From contig JAQGIA010000538.1 of assembly GCA_028291445.1 (NCBI GenBank), forward strand, positions 1 to 11,138: DNA of 11,138 nucleotides, written 5' to 3'. The stretch's first letter is position 1; each line of letters opens with the position of its first letter. The stretch comes from Belnapia sp. (lineage in GTDB: Bacteria > Pseudomonadota > Alphaproteobacteria > Acetobacterales > Acetobacteraceae). The position numbers and the translations under genes were made by a program. The notes under the pieces are model-generated. The model made no database searches. It saw nothing but the letters and a program-made list of their open reading frames with translations, and was not told the DNA's origin. Below are positions 639 through 8,989 of this stretch, piece by piece.

Positions 639-1874
639 ATGCTGCAGCAGGATCGACTGGGAAGCTTTACGCCGCAGATGCCCGATCCGGCTGCCGGCGC
701 CGCTCCGGTGCTGGCGGGCTTTGGCCCGGATTGGATCCTGCTCACCGATGCACGGATCGGCACCGAGCGAATCGACTTCGTGCTGCTGCATCCGGCATTG
801 GGCGTGGCGCTGCTGCAGGTCGCACCGCACTGGACCGCGGAGGCGCCCGGCCTGCTGCGCCAGCGGCTGGCGGAAGCGCGGTTCGGCGCAATCTTCCATG
901 GCTATCTGCCCGTGGTGCATCGGATGCTGCGGCCTGGCGAGTTGCCGGCATTGCCGCGGCGGCTGACCGAAGCCTTCGCCGGCCAGCCGCCGCTCGATCT
1001 GCCCAGCGGCGATGCCTGGATGCAGGTGGTACGGCGAGCGCTAACCGGCGTGGCTGGAGCGGAGCTTGACCCCGCCTCGGCAGCTTTGCCCAAGGCACGC
1101 AGGCAGCGCGGCATGGCGGCCGGGCTGGTCCTGGCGGCCACGATGGCAGGCGTGATCCTGCTTACCCGACCGTGGTCAGCGGAGGTGCCGGAGCCGCTGG
1201 GGATCCTGGCCGTGGCCATCGCGTCAGCGGATGCGGCGGCCGCCGTTCAGGCGCCGGACAGCGGTACCGATGCGCCTTCGGCCGAGGCCTGGGGTGGGTC
1301 ACCGGCGATGCCGGCCGAGCCGCCACCCGATGCCGTGCCGCGCCTGGTGGAGATGCCGAAGGTCCAGGAGCCGGAGGTTCAGGCCTTATCGGCCGAGGTC
1401 CGGGTGGCCCCGGTAGCCGAAGTTCCGGTGGCCGTGGTCCCGCTGGTCGAGGCTCCGGTGGCCGAAGTCGCGCCGCCCGTGGCGTCGCCGGCCGATTCGG
1501 CCCCGATCAGCCTTGCGGCCGCTGCCACGAAGCCGGTCCTGCCCAGCATGGCCGAGCCGGCCCTCACCAACCCGGCCCTCACCACCCCGGCCGTCCCTCT
1601 GGCGCACCAGACCATGCTGCTGCGGCTTGGTGAGGCACGCCTGGCGCTCGGCGACGTCTCCGCCGCCCGGCGCTTCTTCGAACGGGTGGCCGAGGCGGGC
1701 AGCGCGGCCGGTGCGCATGCCCTGGGGGAGACCTATGATCCGGATGTACTCGCACGGCTGGGTGCCTGGGGCATCCGGCCGGACCCCGCCGCCGCCGCCA
1801 CCTGGTATCGGCGGGCGCAGGAATTGGCGGCACATGGCATATCGGCCAGCGCAAACCTGGAGACCGTTCGATGA
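639..1874 (+). CDS. Membrane-anchored protein with degenerate NERD-like N-terminus and Sel1/TPR-like C-terminus
   Basis: 411 aa, no named family recognised. The ATG follows GGGAG (626-630) with an 8-nt spacer. Residues 30-62 (DWILLTDARIG, then RIDFVLLHP and GVALLQV) look like the beta core of nuclease-related NERD/PD-(D/E)xK domains, with D46 in place but Q60-V61-A62 where ExK would be, so no catalysis is expected. A single hydrophobic helix at about 158-176, preceded by RRQR, should anchor it with the N-terminus in the cytoplasm. Residues 180-320 are a Pro/Ala/Val/Glu-rich linker with short repeats of PVAEV type. Residues 325-400 look like one or two Sel1/TPR-type helical repeats (GDVSAARRFFERVAEAG, then AATWYRRAQELAAHG). 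It overlaps the next gene by ATGA, which suggests translational coupling and a joint role at the inner membrane/periplasm. Domain calls are tentative. Confidence 0.8.
   Translation: MLQQDRLGSFTPQMPDPAAGAAPVLAGFGPDWILLTDARIGTERIDFVLLHPALGVALLQVAPHWTAEAPGLLRQRLAEARFGAIFHGYLPVVHRMLRPGELPALPRRLTEAFAGQPPLDLPSGDAWMQVVRRALTGVAGAELDPASAALPKARRQRGMAAGLVLAATMAGVILLTRPWSAEVPEPLGILAVAIASADAAAAVQAPDSGTDAPSAEAWGGSPAMPAEPPPDAVPRLVEMPKVQEPEVQALSAEVRVAPVAEVPVAVVPLVEAPVAEVAPPVASPADSAPISLAAAATKPVLPSMAEPALTNPALTTPAVPLAHQTMLLRLGEARLALGDVSAARRFFERVAEAGSAAGAHALGETYDPDVLARLGAWGIRPDPAAAATWYRRAQELAAHGISASANLETVR
1557..1595 (+). repeat. 15-bp tandem repeat inside the linker-coding region
   Basis: Two near-identical 15-bp units (CCGGCCCTCACCAAC at 1557-1571 and CCGGCCCTCACCACC at 1572-1586) are followed by a partial third (CCGGCCGTC). 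They encode PALTN-PALTT-PAV in the proline-rich linker. In-frame 15-bp units expand or contract without breaking the frame, so linker length may vary between strains. Confidence 0.6.
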
Positions 1875-2845
1875 CCCCAGCCCGCCGTGCGCTGCTGCTC
1901 GCCGCCCTTGCCGCCGGCACCGCCCGCCCGTTCGGGGCGCCGGCGGCGGCGCAGGGGCTGGCGGCCTCGCTCAATACGCTCAGCGTCCGGGCCAATGCCG
2001 GCACGGTCGGGGTCGTCTCCGGCGGGATCGACGGCACCTATGCCCGGATCGCCGCCGATCTGGCTGCGGTGCTGGATGATGGCGACCAGCTGCGGATACT
2101 GCCGATCCTCGGCAAGGGCTCGCTGCAGAATCTCAGCGACATCATGGTCCTGCGGGGCGTCGATATCGGCATCGTCCAATCGGACGTGCTGGCCTATGCG
2201 AAGCGGGAGCGGCTGCTGCCCGGGGTCGACCAGCTGATCCAGTACATCGCCAAGCTCTACGACGAGGAGGTGCATGTGCTGGCGGCGCCGGGGATCGGGC
2301 GGCTGGCCGATCTGGCCGGCAAGCCGGTCAATGTCGATGTGCGCGGCAGCGGCACGGCGATGACCGCGACCTTGGTGCTGGATGGGCTCGGGGTCCAGCC
2401 GCGGCATGTGCCGCAGGACAGCGCGCTCGAACAATTGCGGCGGGGCGAGATCGCCGCGCTGGTCTATGTCGCGGGCAAGCCGGCCCGGCTGTTCAGCGGC
2501 ATTCCGGCCAATAGCGGGCTGCATTTCCTGGCGGTGCCGGCGACCCCGGCGCTGCTCGAAACCTATCTCCCTTCCGCCCTGGCGGCGGCTGACTATCCGA
2601 ACCTGGTCGAAGGCGAGGCGGTCGAGACCATTGCGGTCGGCGCCGTCATGGCAGCCTATGCCTGGCCACCGAACAATGAGCGGCATCGCAAGGTCGCCCG
2701 CTTCGTCGAGGCCTTCTTCAGCCGTTTCCCGGATTTCCTGCGGCCGCCCCGCCACCCGAAGTGGCGCGAGGTGAACCTCGCTGCCCAGGTGCCGGGCTGG
2801 ACCCGCTTCGGCCCCGCCGCGGCACGGGTGGCGGCGACGCGCTGA
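1871..2845 (+). CDS. TAXI-family TRAP-type periplasmic solute-binding protein
   Basis: 324 aa. The ATG overlaps the upstream stop codon as ATGA, which fixes the start. Residues 1-28 form an export signal (ARRALLLAALAA, ending near PAAAQ); the RR pair makes Tat export possible. The mature protein has TAXI-type motifs: VVSGGIDGTYARIAADLA (48-65), where TAXI proteins bind ligand around G-x-Y; GKGSLQNLSDIMVLRG (81-96); and VDIGIVQSDVLAYA (97-110), followed by a second lobe with GKPVNVDVRGSGTAM (150-164). TAXI receptors normally deliver dicarboxylates or amino acids such as glutamate to a fused TRAP DctQM permease; no permease gene is present in the window. Pairing with the Sel1-like membrane protein suggests a sensory or assembly role, or use of a distant permease. 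The family call is firm; the ligand is unknown. Confidence 0.9.
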   Translation: MTPARRALLLAALAAGTARPFGAPAAAQGLAASLNTLSVRANAGTVGVVSGGIDGTYARIAADLAAVLDDGDQLRILPILGKGSLQNLSDIMVLRGVDIGIVQSDVLAYAKRERLLPGVDQLIQYIAKLYDEEVHVLAAPGIGRLADLAGKPVNVDVRGSGTAMTATLVLDGLGVQPRHVPQDSALEQLRRGEIAALVYVAGKPARLFSGIPANSGLHFLAVPATPALLETYLPSALAAADYPNLVEGEAVETIAVGAVMAAYAWPPNNERHRKVARFVEAFFSRFPDFLRPPRHPKWREVNLAAQVPGWTRFGPAAARVAATR

Positions 2846-2978
2846 AGCCGCTCGACCGGCCGGCGATGAACCCGTCGCATCCCGGCTACCGCAGGGCGAT
2901 ACGCCAACTGCCGGAGTGAGCCGAAACGATCGCCGCGGCGGTGCGTTGGCAGGGTCCCCCTCCGGATATCCATTGCTT

Positions 2979-4046
2979 ATGACGGATCAGGTCGAACGGC
3001 CCAAGCCACCCGGCTTCCCCGCACATGGCGCCACCGCGCTGCCGGCCGTCAGCGTCGATGCGGTCAATGCCGAACTGCGCACGCCGGAGGGCTTCCTCGG
3101 CGACCAGGCCAGCAGCGGTGCCTTCAAGCAGATCCTCGAGGCCTGGCGGAAGACGCTGAAGCGGGTGGATGACGAGGACCCGCTGGGCGAGGCGCCGACC
3201 GCCCGGATCAGCCGCCGCCAGCTCGACCGGCTGCTGGCCGAGGGCGATGCCGAGGTGGCCGGGCTGGTGCATGGCGTGGTCGAGGAATTCGCCCAGGGCC
3301 TCGCCACCGTCATCCGCCGGCTGCTGAAGCTGAAGGCCTGGCAGGACACCCAGCGCATCGTCGTCGGCGGCGGGATGCGCGGCAGCCGGGTGGGCGAGCT
3401 GGCGATCGGCCGTGCCGGCATGCTGCTGAAGGGCGAGGATATCGCCCTCGACCTGATTCCGATCCGGCACGACCCCGACGAGGCCGGGATGATCGGCGCC
3501 ACGCAGCTCGCGCCGCCCTGGATCTTCCTCGGCCATGATGCGCTGCTGGCGGTGGATATCGGCGGGTCCAATATCCGGGCCGGGCTGGTGCGGCCGCATC
3601 TGAAGAAGGCGCCGGACCTGTCTGCCGCCTGCCTCTGGGACAGCGAGATCTGGCAGCACCGGGAGGACAAGCCGGGCCGCGAGGCGGCCATCGACCGGCT
3701 ATGCGACATGCTGCGCGACCTGCTGCGCAAGGCGGAGAAGCGCGGCCTGGCGGTTGCGCCCTTCATCGGGGTCGGTTGCCCCGGCCAGATCGAAGCCGAT
3801 GGCAGCATCGCGCGGGGCGGGCAGAACCTGCCCGGCAACTGGGAAAGCAGCCGCTTCAACCTGCCCGGCCGGCTCTGCGAGGCCATCCCCACCATCGGCG
3901 GTCATCCAACCATGGTCGTCATGCACAATGATGCGGTGGTCCAGGGGCTCAGCCAGGTGCCCTGGATGGGCGACGTCGAACGCTGGGGGGTGCTGACTAT
4001 CGGCACCGGCCTCGGCAATGCGCGCTTCACCAACCGGGGAAAATAA
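2979..4046 (+). CDS. ROK-family protein with circularly permuted motif order
   Basis: 355 aa from ATG 2979; a GTG at 2916 would add 21 residues, and neither start has a good ribosome site. ROK proteins are sugar kinases or sugar-binding repressors of the actin/hexokinase fold. Here the segment that normally ends a ROK protein comes first: LLAEGDAEV (85-93), a helix with EEFAQGLATVI (102-112), RIVVGGGMRGSRVGEL (126-141), then HDPDEAGMIGATQLA (164-178). Only afterwards come the usual N-terminal motifs: the phosphate loop AVDIGGSNIRAGLV (191-204), GVGCPGQI (264-271), the catalytic-type Asp in HND (D318) and IGTGLGN (341-347). The protein stops eight residues later. The usual Zn-binding CxCGxxGC and the sugar-binding ExGH stretch are not seen. 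ATP binding is plausible; sugar kinase activity is uncertain. Confidence 0.85.
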   Translation: MTDQVERPKPPGFPAHGATALPAVSVDAVNAELRTPEGFLGDQASSGAFKQILEAWRKTLKRVDDEDPLGEAPTARISRRQLDRLLAEGDAEVAGLVHGVVEEFAQGLATVIRRLLKLKAWQDTQRIVVGGGMRGSRVGELAIGRAGMLLKGEDIALDLIPIRHDPDEAGMIGATQLAPPWIFLGHDALLAVDIGGSNIRAGLVRPHLKKAPDLSAACLWDSEIWQHREDKPGREAAIDRLCDMLRDLLRKAEKRGLAVAPFIGVGCPGQIEADGSIARGGQNLPGNWESSRFNLPGRLCEAIPTIGGHPTMVVMHNDAVVQGLSQVPWMGDVERWGVLTIGTGLGNARFTNRGK

Positions 4047-4058: not shown

Positions 4059-4117
4059 CCAGCCCCGGCCGCTGCGGCGATCCTCCCGCAACGGAGCCGC
4101 ATGGGACCTTGGACGCG

Positions 4118-4984
4118 ATGCATGATGTACTAAGCCGGGTCGTGGAAGCGCCTGCGGCCTCGTTGGCGCGGATCGATGGCGCGGCCCGGCGGCTCGGGAC
4201 GCCTTGCGGCGATGGGGAGATGGCCTGGCGGGTCTGGGGCAAGGGCCGGCCGCTGGTGCTGCTGCATGGCGGCTCCGGTTCCTGGCGGCATTGGGCCCGC
4301 AACGTGGAGGCGCTGGCGGTGGACCGGATGGTGGTCTGCCCGGACCTGCCCGGCCTGGGCGAGAGCGCCATGCCACCGCCTGCCGAGAGTCCTGCCCCGG
4401 TCGCGGCGCTGGTACGGCAAGGCCTGGCGGCGGTGATCGGTGCCGATACCACCTATGACCTCTGCGGCTTTTCCTTCGGTTCGCTGCTCGCCGGCCATAT
4501 CGCCGCCGAAGCCGGGCCGGAGCTGCGCAGCGTGACCCTGGTCGGGGCCGGGGCGCTCGGCCTGCCGCGCCAGATCACCCCGCTGGTCAAGGTCCGCAGC
4601 GAGGTCGGCGAGGCACGGGTGGCCGCCCATCGGCATAATCTGGCCAGCCTGATGTTCGCCGACCCGGCCGCCATCGACCCGCTGGCCCTGGCGATCCAGG
4701 AGGCCAACAGCGTCGCCGCACGCTTCCGCAGCCGCGGCTTCGCCAGCACCACCAGCCTGAAGGACGCCATCGCCCGCTGCACCGCCCCGGTCGCGCTGCT
4801 CTATGGCGAACGCGATGCGATCGCCTGGCCGGAGGTGGAACTGCGCTTCGCCGCGCTGCGGGAGGTTCAGCCGACGGCTTGGACCGGCGTGATCCCCGGG
4901 GCAGGGCATTGGGTCGCCTATGAGGCGGCGGCCAGCTTCAATGCCCTGCTGGCGGATATGCTGCGACGCAGACTGGGGGATTGA
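4118..4984 (+). CDS. Alpha/beta-fold hydrolase
   Basis: 288 aa from ATG 4118 (GGGA at 4103-4106, 11-nt spacer); a TTG at 4109 would add three residues. It is a classic single-domain alpha/beta hydrolase of usual length: oxyanion-hole turn LLHGGSGSW (48-56), strand and loop VVCPDLPGLGES (72-83), nucleophile elbow GFSFGS with S119, acid in YGERDAIAWP (D233) and catalytic His in GAGHWV (H264). All three triad residues are present, so it should be active on an ester, thioester or C-C bond; it resembles the MhpC/proline-iminopeptidase-like superfamily, but the substrate cannot be read from the sequence. There is no signal peptide, so it is cytoplasmic. It sits between the ROK gene and a Bug receptor gene, all on the plus strand, with a 67-bp gap before the latter. 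Confidence 0.88.
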   Translation: MHDVLSRVVEAPAASLARIDGAARRLGTPCGDGEMAWRVWGKGRPLVLLHGGSGSWRHWARNVEALAVDRMVVCPDLPGLGESAMPPPAESPAPVAALVRQGLAAVIGADTTYDLCGFSFGSLLAGHIAAEAGPELRSVTLVGAGALGLPRQITPLVKVRSEVGEARVAAHRHNLASLMFADPAAIDPLALAIQEANSVAARFRSRGFASTTSLKDAIARCTAPVALLYGERDAIAWPEVELRFAALREVQPTAWTGVIPGAGHWVAYEAAASFNALLADMLRRRLGD

Positions 4985-8659: not shown

Positions 8660-8684
8660 GGAAACGCGGCGCCCCGCTGGCGTT
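8660..8684 (+). promoter_or_regulatory. Candidate EcfG (general stress sigma factor) promoter
   Basis: GGAAA (8660-8664), 16 nt, then CGTT (8681-8684, continuing TT as CGTTTG) matches the alphaproteobacterial EcfG consensus GGAAC-N16/17-CGTT with one mismatch. Transcription would start near 8690-8695, leaving about 40 nt of leader before the KGG protein ATG at 8732. KGG-type stress proteins are plausible EcfG targets, so position and gene agree. Inference only. Confidence 0.5.
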
Positions 8685-8731: not shown

Positions 8732-8989
8732 ATGGCCAATCAGCAGACCTCCACCGGTGGCGGCAACGGCAATCCGGGGAATTTCGCCAATGACCGGCAG
8801 AAGGCCCGCATCGCCGGGCAGCTTGGCGGGATGAAGCAGGGCAAGGCCAGCAACCCCGGCAATTTCGCCAATAACCGGGAAAAAGCTGCGGCCGCCGGGC
8901 GCAAGGGCGGCCAGCACAGCCATGGCAGCAAGGCCCAAAGCCAGGATCGCCCGGGCCAGGAACGCCTCGGCCAGGAAAGCCTCGGTTAG
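8732..8989 (+). CDS. KGG-repeat (Con-10-like) stress-induced protein
   Basis: 85 aa, very hydrophilic, rich in Gly, Asn, Gln and Lys. It has two copies of the KGG/Con-10 stress motif, exactly 27 residues apart: NPGNFANDRQKARIAGQLGG (14-33) and NPGNFANNREKAAAAGRKGG (41-60). Such small proteins accumulate on stress or sporulation in fungi and bacteria; their biochemical role is unclear. ATG 8732 was preferred (AAGG at 8717-8720, MANQ start); an in-frame ATG at 8699 would sit almost on the predicted transcription start. The tail (residues 70-85) is pentapeptide-like, QDRPG-QERLG-QESLG, and comes from a 15-bp tandem repeat that continues past the stop. It is transcribed away from the CoA-transferase gene and towards the LLM gene. 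Confidence 0.85.
   Translation: MANQQTSTGGGNGNPGNFANDRQKARIAGQLGGMKQGKASNPGNFANNREKAAAAGRKGGQHSHGSKAQSQDRPGQERLGQESLG

Follow-up and report, generated by a model that had tools for sequence, protein, structure and literature searches.

What is the protein encoded between positions 2979 and 4046 of the window, the 11,138-nucleotide contig JAQGIA010000538.1 of a Belnapia sp. assembly (GCA_028291445.1), in which the motifs of a ROK-family sugar kinase come in the wrong order? An earlier note, made from the sequence alone, had described motifs that normally close a ROK protein ahead of those that normally open it, and had proposed a circular permutation of the actin-like ROK fold. The open reading frame of 355 codons on the forward strand, its coordinates and its motif positions are all as that note had described them: C-lobe-type motifs come first, with IVVGGG at residues 127-132, N-lobe-type motifs come second, and the chain stops right after GTGLGN, with eight residues beyond the motif. 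Our computational analysis identifies the protein as a natural circular permutant of the ROK fold, hereafter circularly permuted ROK (cp-ROK), and the reading that we favour for it, as the probable one, is that of a stress-induced, ATP-dependent phosphotransferase that founded a permuted branch of the ROK proteins.

The permutation is apparent from profile comparisons, in which the two halves of the protein match opposite ends of ordinary ROK models. Residues 96-175 correspond to the C-terminal end of the NCBIfam model BglK (210-282 of 291, E 2e-4), and residues 191-351 to the N-terminal end of the model PPGK (4-141 of 242, E 0.057). Compared with a reference profile built from 25 linear ROK proteins, the profile of the permuted family yielded two non-collinear matches, of positions 189-353 with ROK 3-141 (E 1.3e-9) and of positions 74-180 with ROK 191-288 (E 1.9e-6). 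With a tandem ROK-ROK profile as the template these became a single match (74-353 with 191-432, score 114.9, E 1e-14), and swapping the halves back gave a collinear ROK match over 3-349 (E 3e-14); it is this merging of two non-collinear matches into one on a tandem or re-ordered template that we take as the criterion of a permutant. Column-shuffled halves, 20 of each, scored at most 18.9 and 19.1, and reversed halves 14.8 and 14.1, as against 51.4 and 72.1 for the real ones.

In predicted models compared with known structures, residues 185-353 fit the N-lobes and residues 23-180 the C-lobes of ROK proteins. The AlphaFold2 model of the whole protein has a predicted local distance difference test score (pLDDT) of 90.1 and a predicted template modelling score (pTM) of 0.89, that of a half alone 74.7 and 0.69; each half adopts the matching ROK lobe, the N-terminal half being the weaker evidence. 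Absences from the fold-comparison lists carry no weight here. The earlier note had named two outcomes that would speak against a permutation, namely a collinear match of the whole protein with a ROK structure and the lack of any match between its N-terminal part and the C-terminal half of ROK proteins. Neither occurred: the matches are swapped, and the N-terminal part matches the ROK C-lobe. Sequence profiles, two predicted structures and a conserved motif order together bear the proposal out.

Could the motifs nonetheless have come into this order by chance, through misassembly or in an isolated rearrangement? Such an explanation is refuted by the many independently assembled genomes that contain relatives, among them all 57 good-quality ones of one genus, and by the profile nulls, and it retains practically no probability. 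A protein search returned at least 8,000 candidates, all with E ≤ 0.001, the best 120 of which share 62-100% identity with the query over 92-100% of its length. From a scan of named genomes, with at least 593 stretches, the best 80 of at least 569 relatives were kept, and these span Belnapia, Roseicella, Siccirubricoccus, Roseomonas, Bradyrhizobium, Nitrobacter, Rhodoplanes, Methylobacterium, Stella and others. Full-length copies occur in 12 of 289 sampled genomes of the class, with one further weak match, and in 22 of 398 sampled genomes of the phylum, with 12 further weak partial matches, the six inspected being ordinary linear ROKs. Within the window's own family the gene was found in 13 of 120 genomes, with one copy split over two frames, and in 59 of 60 genomes of a genus whose loci coincide with those of named Bradyrhizobium, and which is therefore taken as Bradyrhizobium, including the 57 good-quality ones. 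The window protein shares 42-49% identity with a second branch, which belongs to the Xanthomonadales, with names including Pseudoxanthomonas, Luteimonas, Lysobacter and Stenotrophomonas. Among plasmid records, mostly of Rhizobium and Sinorhizobium, 206 match cp-ROK, in 204 cases along 80% or more of the query, and pSymB of S. meliloti 1021 carries the gene, at 477,071-478,414. Two alignments, of 46 and of 48 relatives, show the motifs invariant and their order unchanged, and a motif-order pattern is kept in 108 of 110 permuted proteins, both exceptions still closing with GTGLGN; a tighter pattern, judged too tight, had matched 97. The suspicion in the earlier note of a stable family rather than a single rearrangement is thereby borne out, and a permuted ROK is probably fixed in thousands of proteins. 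Broken or fragmentary copies were seen in four genomes (G661, G680, G681 and G818), in the first three beside a full-length copy, and in one 566-residue protein (P0055) the permuted ROK follows a segment that contains an H2TH (Fpg/Nei-type) domain, possibly through an artefact of gene calling or assembly.

As all aligned members share a single breakpoint, their sequences suggest that the permutation arose in one event. As to its source, the window's genome, an assembly 75% complete in which a single cp-ROK copy was found, has one other PF00480 gene, a linear ROK on another contig (G000:C632:2056-2931), whose translation has DLGGT first, then GEWGH and CxCGxxGCxE, and GDSSGVLGA at its close. 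A close linear ancestor was not found, the linear matches being weak, with best E values of 1.9e-5 among the 289 genomes and 5.2e-6 among the 398, and no tandem ROK intermediate turned up, though no search was aimed at one. The PPGK-type ROKs share features with the family: 21 of 48 members match the PPGK model of NCBIfam, as 23 match the ROK glucokinase model, and the zinc motif is absent as well from two PPGK-like linear proteins, L173 and L174. Unlike cp-ROK, these two are linear, and they have E-x-A-H. Since other linear ROKs (L114-L120 and L013) gave the highest scores when the linear set was compared with the re-ordered profile, a PPGK parentage is not shown. One of these, L013:751-1905 on the reverse strand, is an odd linear ROK-like protein of 384 residues without the zinc motif; it has DGHASKLHVNVD at the place expected for ExGH, which resembles the HGA..LP.V.VD start of the permuted family.

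What has been retained of the ROK active site, and what has been lost? Both lobes match those of the ROK sugar kinases (PF00480; NanK, NagK, the kinase domain of GNE and ROK glucokinase), and DxGG, the catalytic Asp and GTG are shared. Invariant in 48 relatives from both branches are D193, G195, G196, P268, G269, N283, W288, H316, N317, D318 and the GTG at 342-344; residue 197 is Thr in 35 and Ser in 13. In NagK, where according to the accessible part of PMC10031466 the metal Asp, the phosphate Thr residues and the catalytic base matter, mutation of D6, T10, D105 or T132 abolishes or lowers activity. These residues correspond by motif to D193, S/T197, D318 and T343, each kept in 48 of 48. The invariance of the catalytic Asp and the phosphate motifs argues for phosphotransfer, and the family's chemistry is probably like that of ordinary ROKs. 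The earlier note's idea of a non-sugar substrate or a regulatory role is not established.

The differences concern the order and the acceptor side. In cp-ROK the halves are swapped, and the N-terminus lies inside the former C-lobe. Of the ROK features listed in the available portion of PMC5458393, the strictly conserved catalytic Asp is present as D318, the equivalent of NanK D105; the nucleotide site with DxGxT is not N-terminal, DIGG[ST] being present but in the second half; and CxCGxxGCx(E/D) and ExGH are missing. CxCGxxGC and literal ExGH were each found in none of 110 permuted proteins, as against 24 and 23 of 25 linear ones. In this respect the loss of the sugar and zinc insert claimed by the earlier note holds for the zinc motif and the literal ExGH, but perhaps not for the histidine: His16 aligns with the ExGH histidine of NanK, which may thus persist at the new N-terminus, and D42 adjoins the position of the GCxE glutamate, with a posterior of only 0.44. 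The zinc site is also absent from some accepted ROK members, among them F. nucleatum NanK, which retains the active-site features (PMC5458393, same portion). As order, ExGH and zinc motif all depart from the ROK pattern, we name the protein a circularly permuted ROK derivative and not an ordinary ROK member.

Under which conditions would such a protein be made? At four rhizobial plasmid loci (L186-L188 and L190), cp-ROK lies near genes for OtsB, a peptidase annotated as belonging to the "osmoprotectant NAGGN system", a ferritin-like protein, a PRC-barrel protein and Hsp20. These stress-type neighbours, the peptidase excepted, prompted a search for a stress promoter, that of the general stress sigma factor EcfG, whose motif in R. 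etli is GGAAC-N16-CGTT (PMC3892343, as far as accessible). In a first scan the strict motif with spacings N15-N17 was present in 10 of 111 upstream regions, as against 32 of 8,272 background windows; counted over the 106 alphaproteobacterial regions, the strict motif is present in 9. After inspection of the upstream regions the second -35 position was relaxed to A or C as well. G[ACG]AAC-N-CGTT was then found at N16 in 56 and at N17 in 5 of the 106 alphaproteobacterial loci, at no more than two for any other spacing from 8 to 25, and at none of five loci outside the class. With the first -10 base left open (G[ACG]AAC-N-NGTT), 82 loci have the motif at N16 and 5 at N17, with at most two at any other spacing from 10 to 23; these 87 of 106 compare with 120 of 22,996 background windows, and again with none of the five relatives outside the class.

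Since the variant had been chosen after looking, other loci were tested. Of 9 plasmid loci that had no part in defining the variant, 8 have the strict motif at N16/17 (7 of 8 species, Methylobacterium being the exception), a test that covers 9 of the 206 plasmid records; of another 11 new loci, 7 have the broad motif, 20 having been fetched and 9 excluded as copies of earlier ones. None of 17 linear ROK upstream regions, the scorable ones among 30 loci, has the broad motif. Because the loci are related, the motif was also counted per protein cluster, and is found in 46 of 60 clusters at 90% identity, 30 of 41 at 80% and 17 of 24 at 70%, as well as in 85 of 104 distinct upstream sequences. Among the genomes tested, the EcfG anti-sigma factor NepR scored above the cut-off in 21 of 34, every one of them alphaproteobacterial, and in none of five outside the class; at E ≤ 0.1 the count is 26 of 34, but one control outside the class then matches too. 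Cp-ROK thus resembles the EcfG/RpoE2 general stress regulon of Alphaproteobacteria in promoter motif and spacing, as a putative member, and EcfG control of most alphaproteobacterial members is very likely. A keyword search of the main texts of four RpoE2/EcfG papers (PMC3616915, PMC6180224, PMC8877191 and PMC3188799) did not find the gene.

From the computed fold, conservation and promoter motif we infer the following mechanism. New termini would have opened in the C-lobe, past the strand carrying GTGxG, and the old termini would have fused, so that the former C-terminal helix leads straight into the DxGxT strand. ROK domain 1 consists of residues 1-118 plus the C-terminal part (PMC5458393, in the part seen); with both old termini in the N-lobe, their fusion would have been structurally easy. 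The new termini fall in the C-lobe, which in GNE bears the ROK dimer interface (PMC2742894, likewise). Both lobes and the ATP site would be reassembled from the swapped halves and bind ATP-Mg between them, with D193 serving the metal, S/T197 and T343 the phosphates and D318 as the base, and a small molecule would receive the phosphate on one of its hydroxyls. The ExGH/zinc pocket would be replaced by a remodelled one for the acceptor, in which H16 and D42 may take part; conservation marks H16, D27, D42, E102, W121, N283 and W288 as candidate residues of this pocket. In Alphaproteobacteria, transcription would most likely be turned on by EcfG/RpoE2 once it is released under stress. That the protein is a catalytic phosphotransferase is, judging from its conserved residues, rather probable. 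Control by a stress sigma factor would make stress or osmoprotectant metabolism its probable setting, with a sugar or polyol as the acceptor, a class to which we would give even chances.

Several observations weigh against parts of this picture. Residues 17-73 have no confident placement in the profile comparison (alignment posteriors about 0.4). The structure alignment begins later and gives no support for the placement of His16 and D42, which therefore stays a lead. The window's own protein did not match PF00480 at a limit of E 10, where HMMER filters drop most matches above about 0.1; its sole Pfam row is an unrelated family below the cut-off, and sequence searches of the PDB gave nothing significant, the best E being 0.21 with the whole protein and 1 with the N-half profile. 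The window's own genome, which is incomplete, yielded no NepR, and G[ACG]AAC-N16/17-CGTT is not enriched there, with 64 occurrences as against 102 for the reversed control. For lack of such enrichment the lone motif in the window proves little, and the case for EcfG rests on conservation across loci.

Two other functions have to be weighed against a stress-induced phosphotransferase. Like the ROK repressors, the protein might be no kinase at all: induced by stress, it would act as a regulator or a scaffold, with ATP or a ligand bound to the permuted fold. ROK includes such non-kinases, for example Mlc, whose chains match both cp-ROK halves structurally, and the absence of the literal ExGH and zinc motifs from all 110 permuted proteins also speaks for it. 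However, a pure regulator is not expected to need the catalytic Asp, DxGG and GTG that are invariant in all 48 relatives, and the Pfam families matched by these include no DNA-binding domain, so that we consider this explanation unlikely. Less likely still is an ordinary ROK hexokinase in which the permutation is neutral, one that might, for instance, supply glucose-6-phosphate from glucose for OtsA trehalose synthesis under stress. The catalytic residues are all retained, TIGR00744, the ROK glucokinase model, is matched by 23 of 48 members, F. nucleatum NanK retains its active-site features without a zinc site, and trehalose synthesis is under EcfG control in B. diazoefficiens (PMC8092242, in its accessible part). 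Yet in the alignment to NanK no clear counterpart of the ExGH and GCxE glutamates is seen, and otsB, a divergent gene adjoining cp-ROK in Rhizobium bangladeshense, is named beside it in just one of four annotated plasmid regions. A glucokinase, PF02685, is also present in 22 of 31 genomes with cp-ROK, and a simple glucokinase replacement was rejected on this co-occurrence.

The neighbouring genes give no further clue, and a functional assignment from the gene neighbourhood was rejected, no neighbour being conserved across lineages. The cluster of the upstream neighbour in the window is present in 7 of 81 loci and that of the downstream hydrolase directly follows cp-ROK in 14, the window included in both cases, the latter on the Belnapia/Roseicella side. 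On the same side, in 13 of 81 loci though not in the window, a gene for a GreA/GreB-type factor lies immediately upstream (e.g., L019:6667-7266). Bradyrhizobium-type loci have another alpha/beta hydrolase cluster, ribosomal L21, GNAT, Obg and a ProB-like kinase adjoining on the opposite strand. Representatives of GreA/B and of both hydrolases had no tblastn match (E ≤ 1e-8) in 20 further regions. Within the whole window, both strands considered, G[ACG]AAC-N(15 to 17)-CGTT occurs at two places in all, one being the cp-ROK promoter. Ahead of a gene for a small KGG-repeat protein (8732-8989, forward strand), a near-EcfG motif, GAAAC-N15-CGTT, begins at 8661, some 70 bp from the probable start of the gene; we take this protein to be a member of a stress-induced family. 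The coordinates of the features are collected in the table.

Features of the cp-ROK locus, in window coordinates; fractions refer to the 48 aligned relatives
Feature	Position	Strand	Remarks
NMT1-like (TAXI-type) solute-binding protein, upstream neighbour	1871..2845	+	PF16868; not thought part of the system
EcfG-like promoter GAAAC-N16-CGTT	2923..2947	+	begins 56 bp before ATG; variant of GGAAC-N16-CGTT
cp-ROK gene, 355 residues, ATG start	2979..4046	+	start is the consensus start of the relatives' alignment; a few relatives extend further at the N-terminus
N-terminal half, residues 1-186, equivalent of ROK C-lobe	2979..3536	+	
His16, candidate for ExGH histidine	3024..3026	+	kept in 47/48; posterior 0.71 to NanK H156
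GFLGD, residues 38-42, about at the ROK zinc-loop place	3090..3104	+	F39, G41, D42 48/48; posterior only 0.41-0.44
VGGG, residues 129-132, adenosine-side motif	3363..3374	+	G130-132 48/48; NanK 240-242, posterior >0.98
HDPDEAGMIGA, residues 164-174, start of helix closing ordinary ROK proteins	3468..3500	+	modelled helix spans 166-177
C-terminal half, residues 187-355, equivalent of ROK N-lobe	3537..4043	+	
DIGGS, residues 193-197, phosphate-1 motif (ROK DxGxT)	3555..3569	+	D193, G195, G196 48/48
GCPG, residues 266-269	3774..3785	+	P268, G269 48/48; C267 41/48
HND, residues 316-318, D318 equivalent to catalytic base of ROK kinases	3924..3932	+	48/48; N317-D318 align with NanK N104-D105, posterior 0.99
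GTGLGN, residues 342-347, phosphate-2 motif	4002..4019	+	8 residues before C-terminus
Alpha/beta hydrolase, downstream neighbour	4109..4984	+	not thought part of the system

How much of this is already on record? PF00480 tags 37 of 48 relatives at E ≤ 1e-3, so the homology is known to annotation pipelines; the permutation, as far as seen, is not. Among the members listed, the labels in use are "ROK family protein", "glucokinase", "predicted NBD/HSP70 family sugar kinase" and "hypothetical protein", and such labels conceal how the permuted members differ. Literature searches among open-licence papers brought up no title or abstract opening that describes a permuted ROK protein, nor do the accessible parts of PMC12696579, PMC1079889, PMC1976428 and PMC2213659 describe one. 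New here, beyond what the earlier note had observed, is the EcfG-like promoter at most of the alphaproteobacterial loci examined.

If our reading is true, the two-lobed fold of the actin/hexokinase superfamily tolerates evolutionary re-threading, and a substrate pocket can be rebuilt at new termini. At its boldest, and somewhat short of an even bet, the scenario is that of an ancient, fixed branch of actin-like kinases in which the sugar/zinc loop opened into termini, a new acceptor was adopted and the general stress response of Alphaproteobacteria took the protein up among its core effectors. The EcfG-type stress response matters for legume symbiosis (PMC8092242, in the part available). The promoter links an uncharacterised gene of S. 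meliloti 1021 and of nearly every Bradyrhizobium genome sampled to this symbiosis-relevant response, in which its role would be directly testable in standard laboratory strains.
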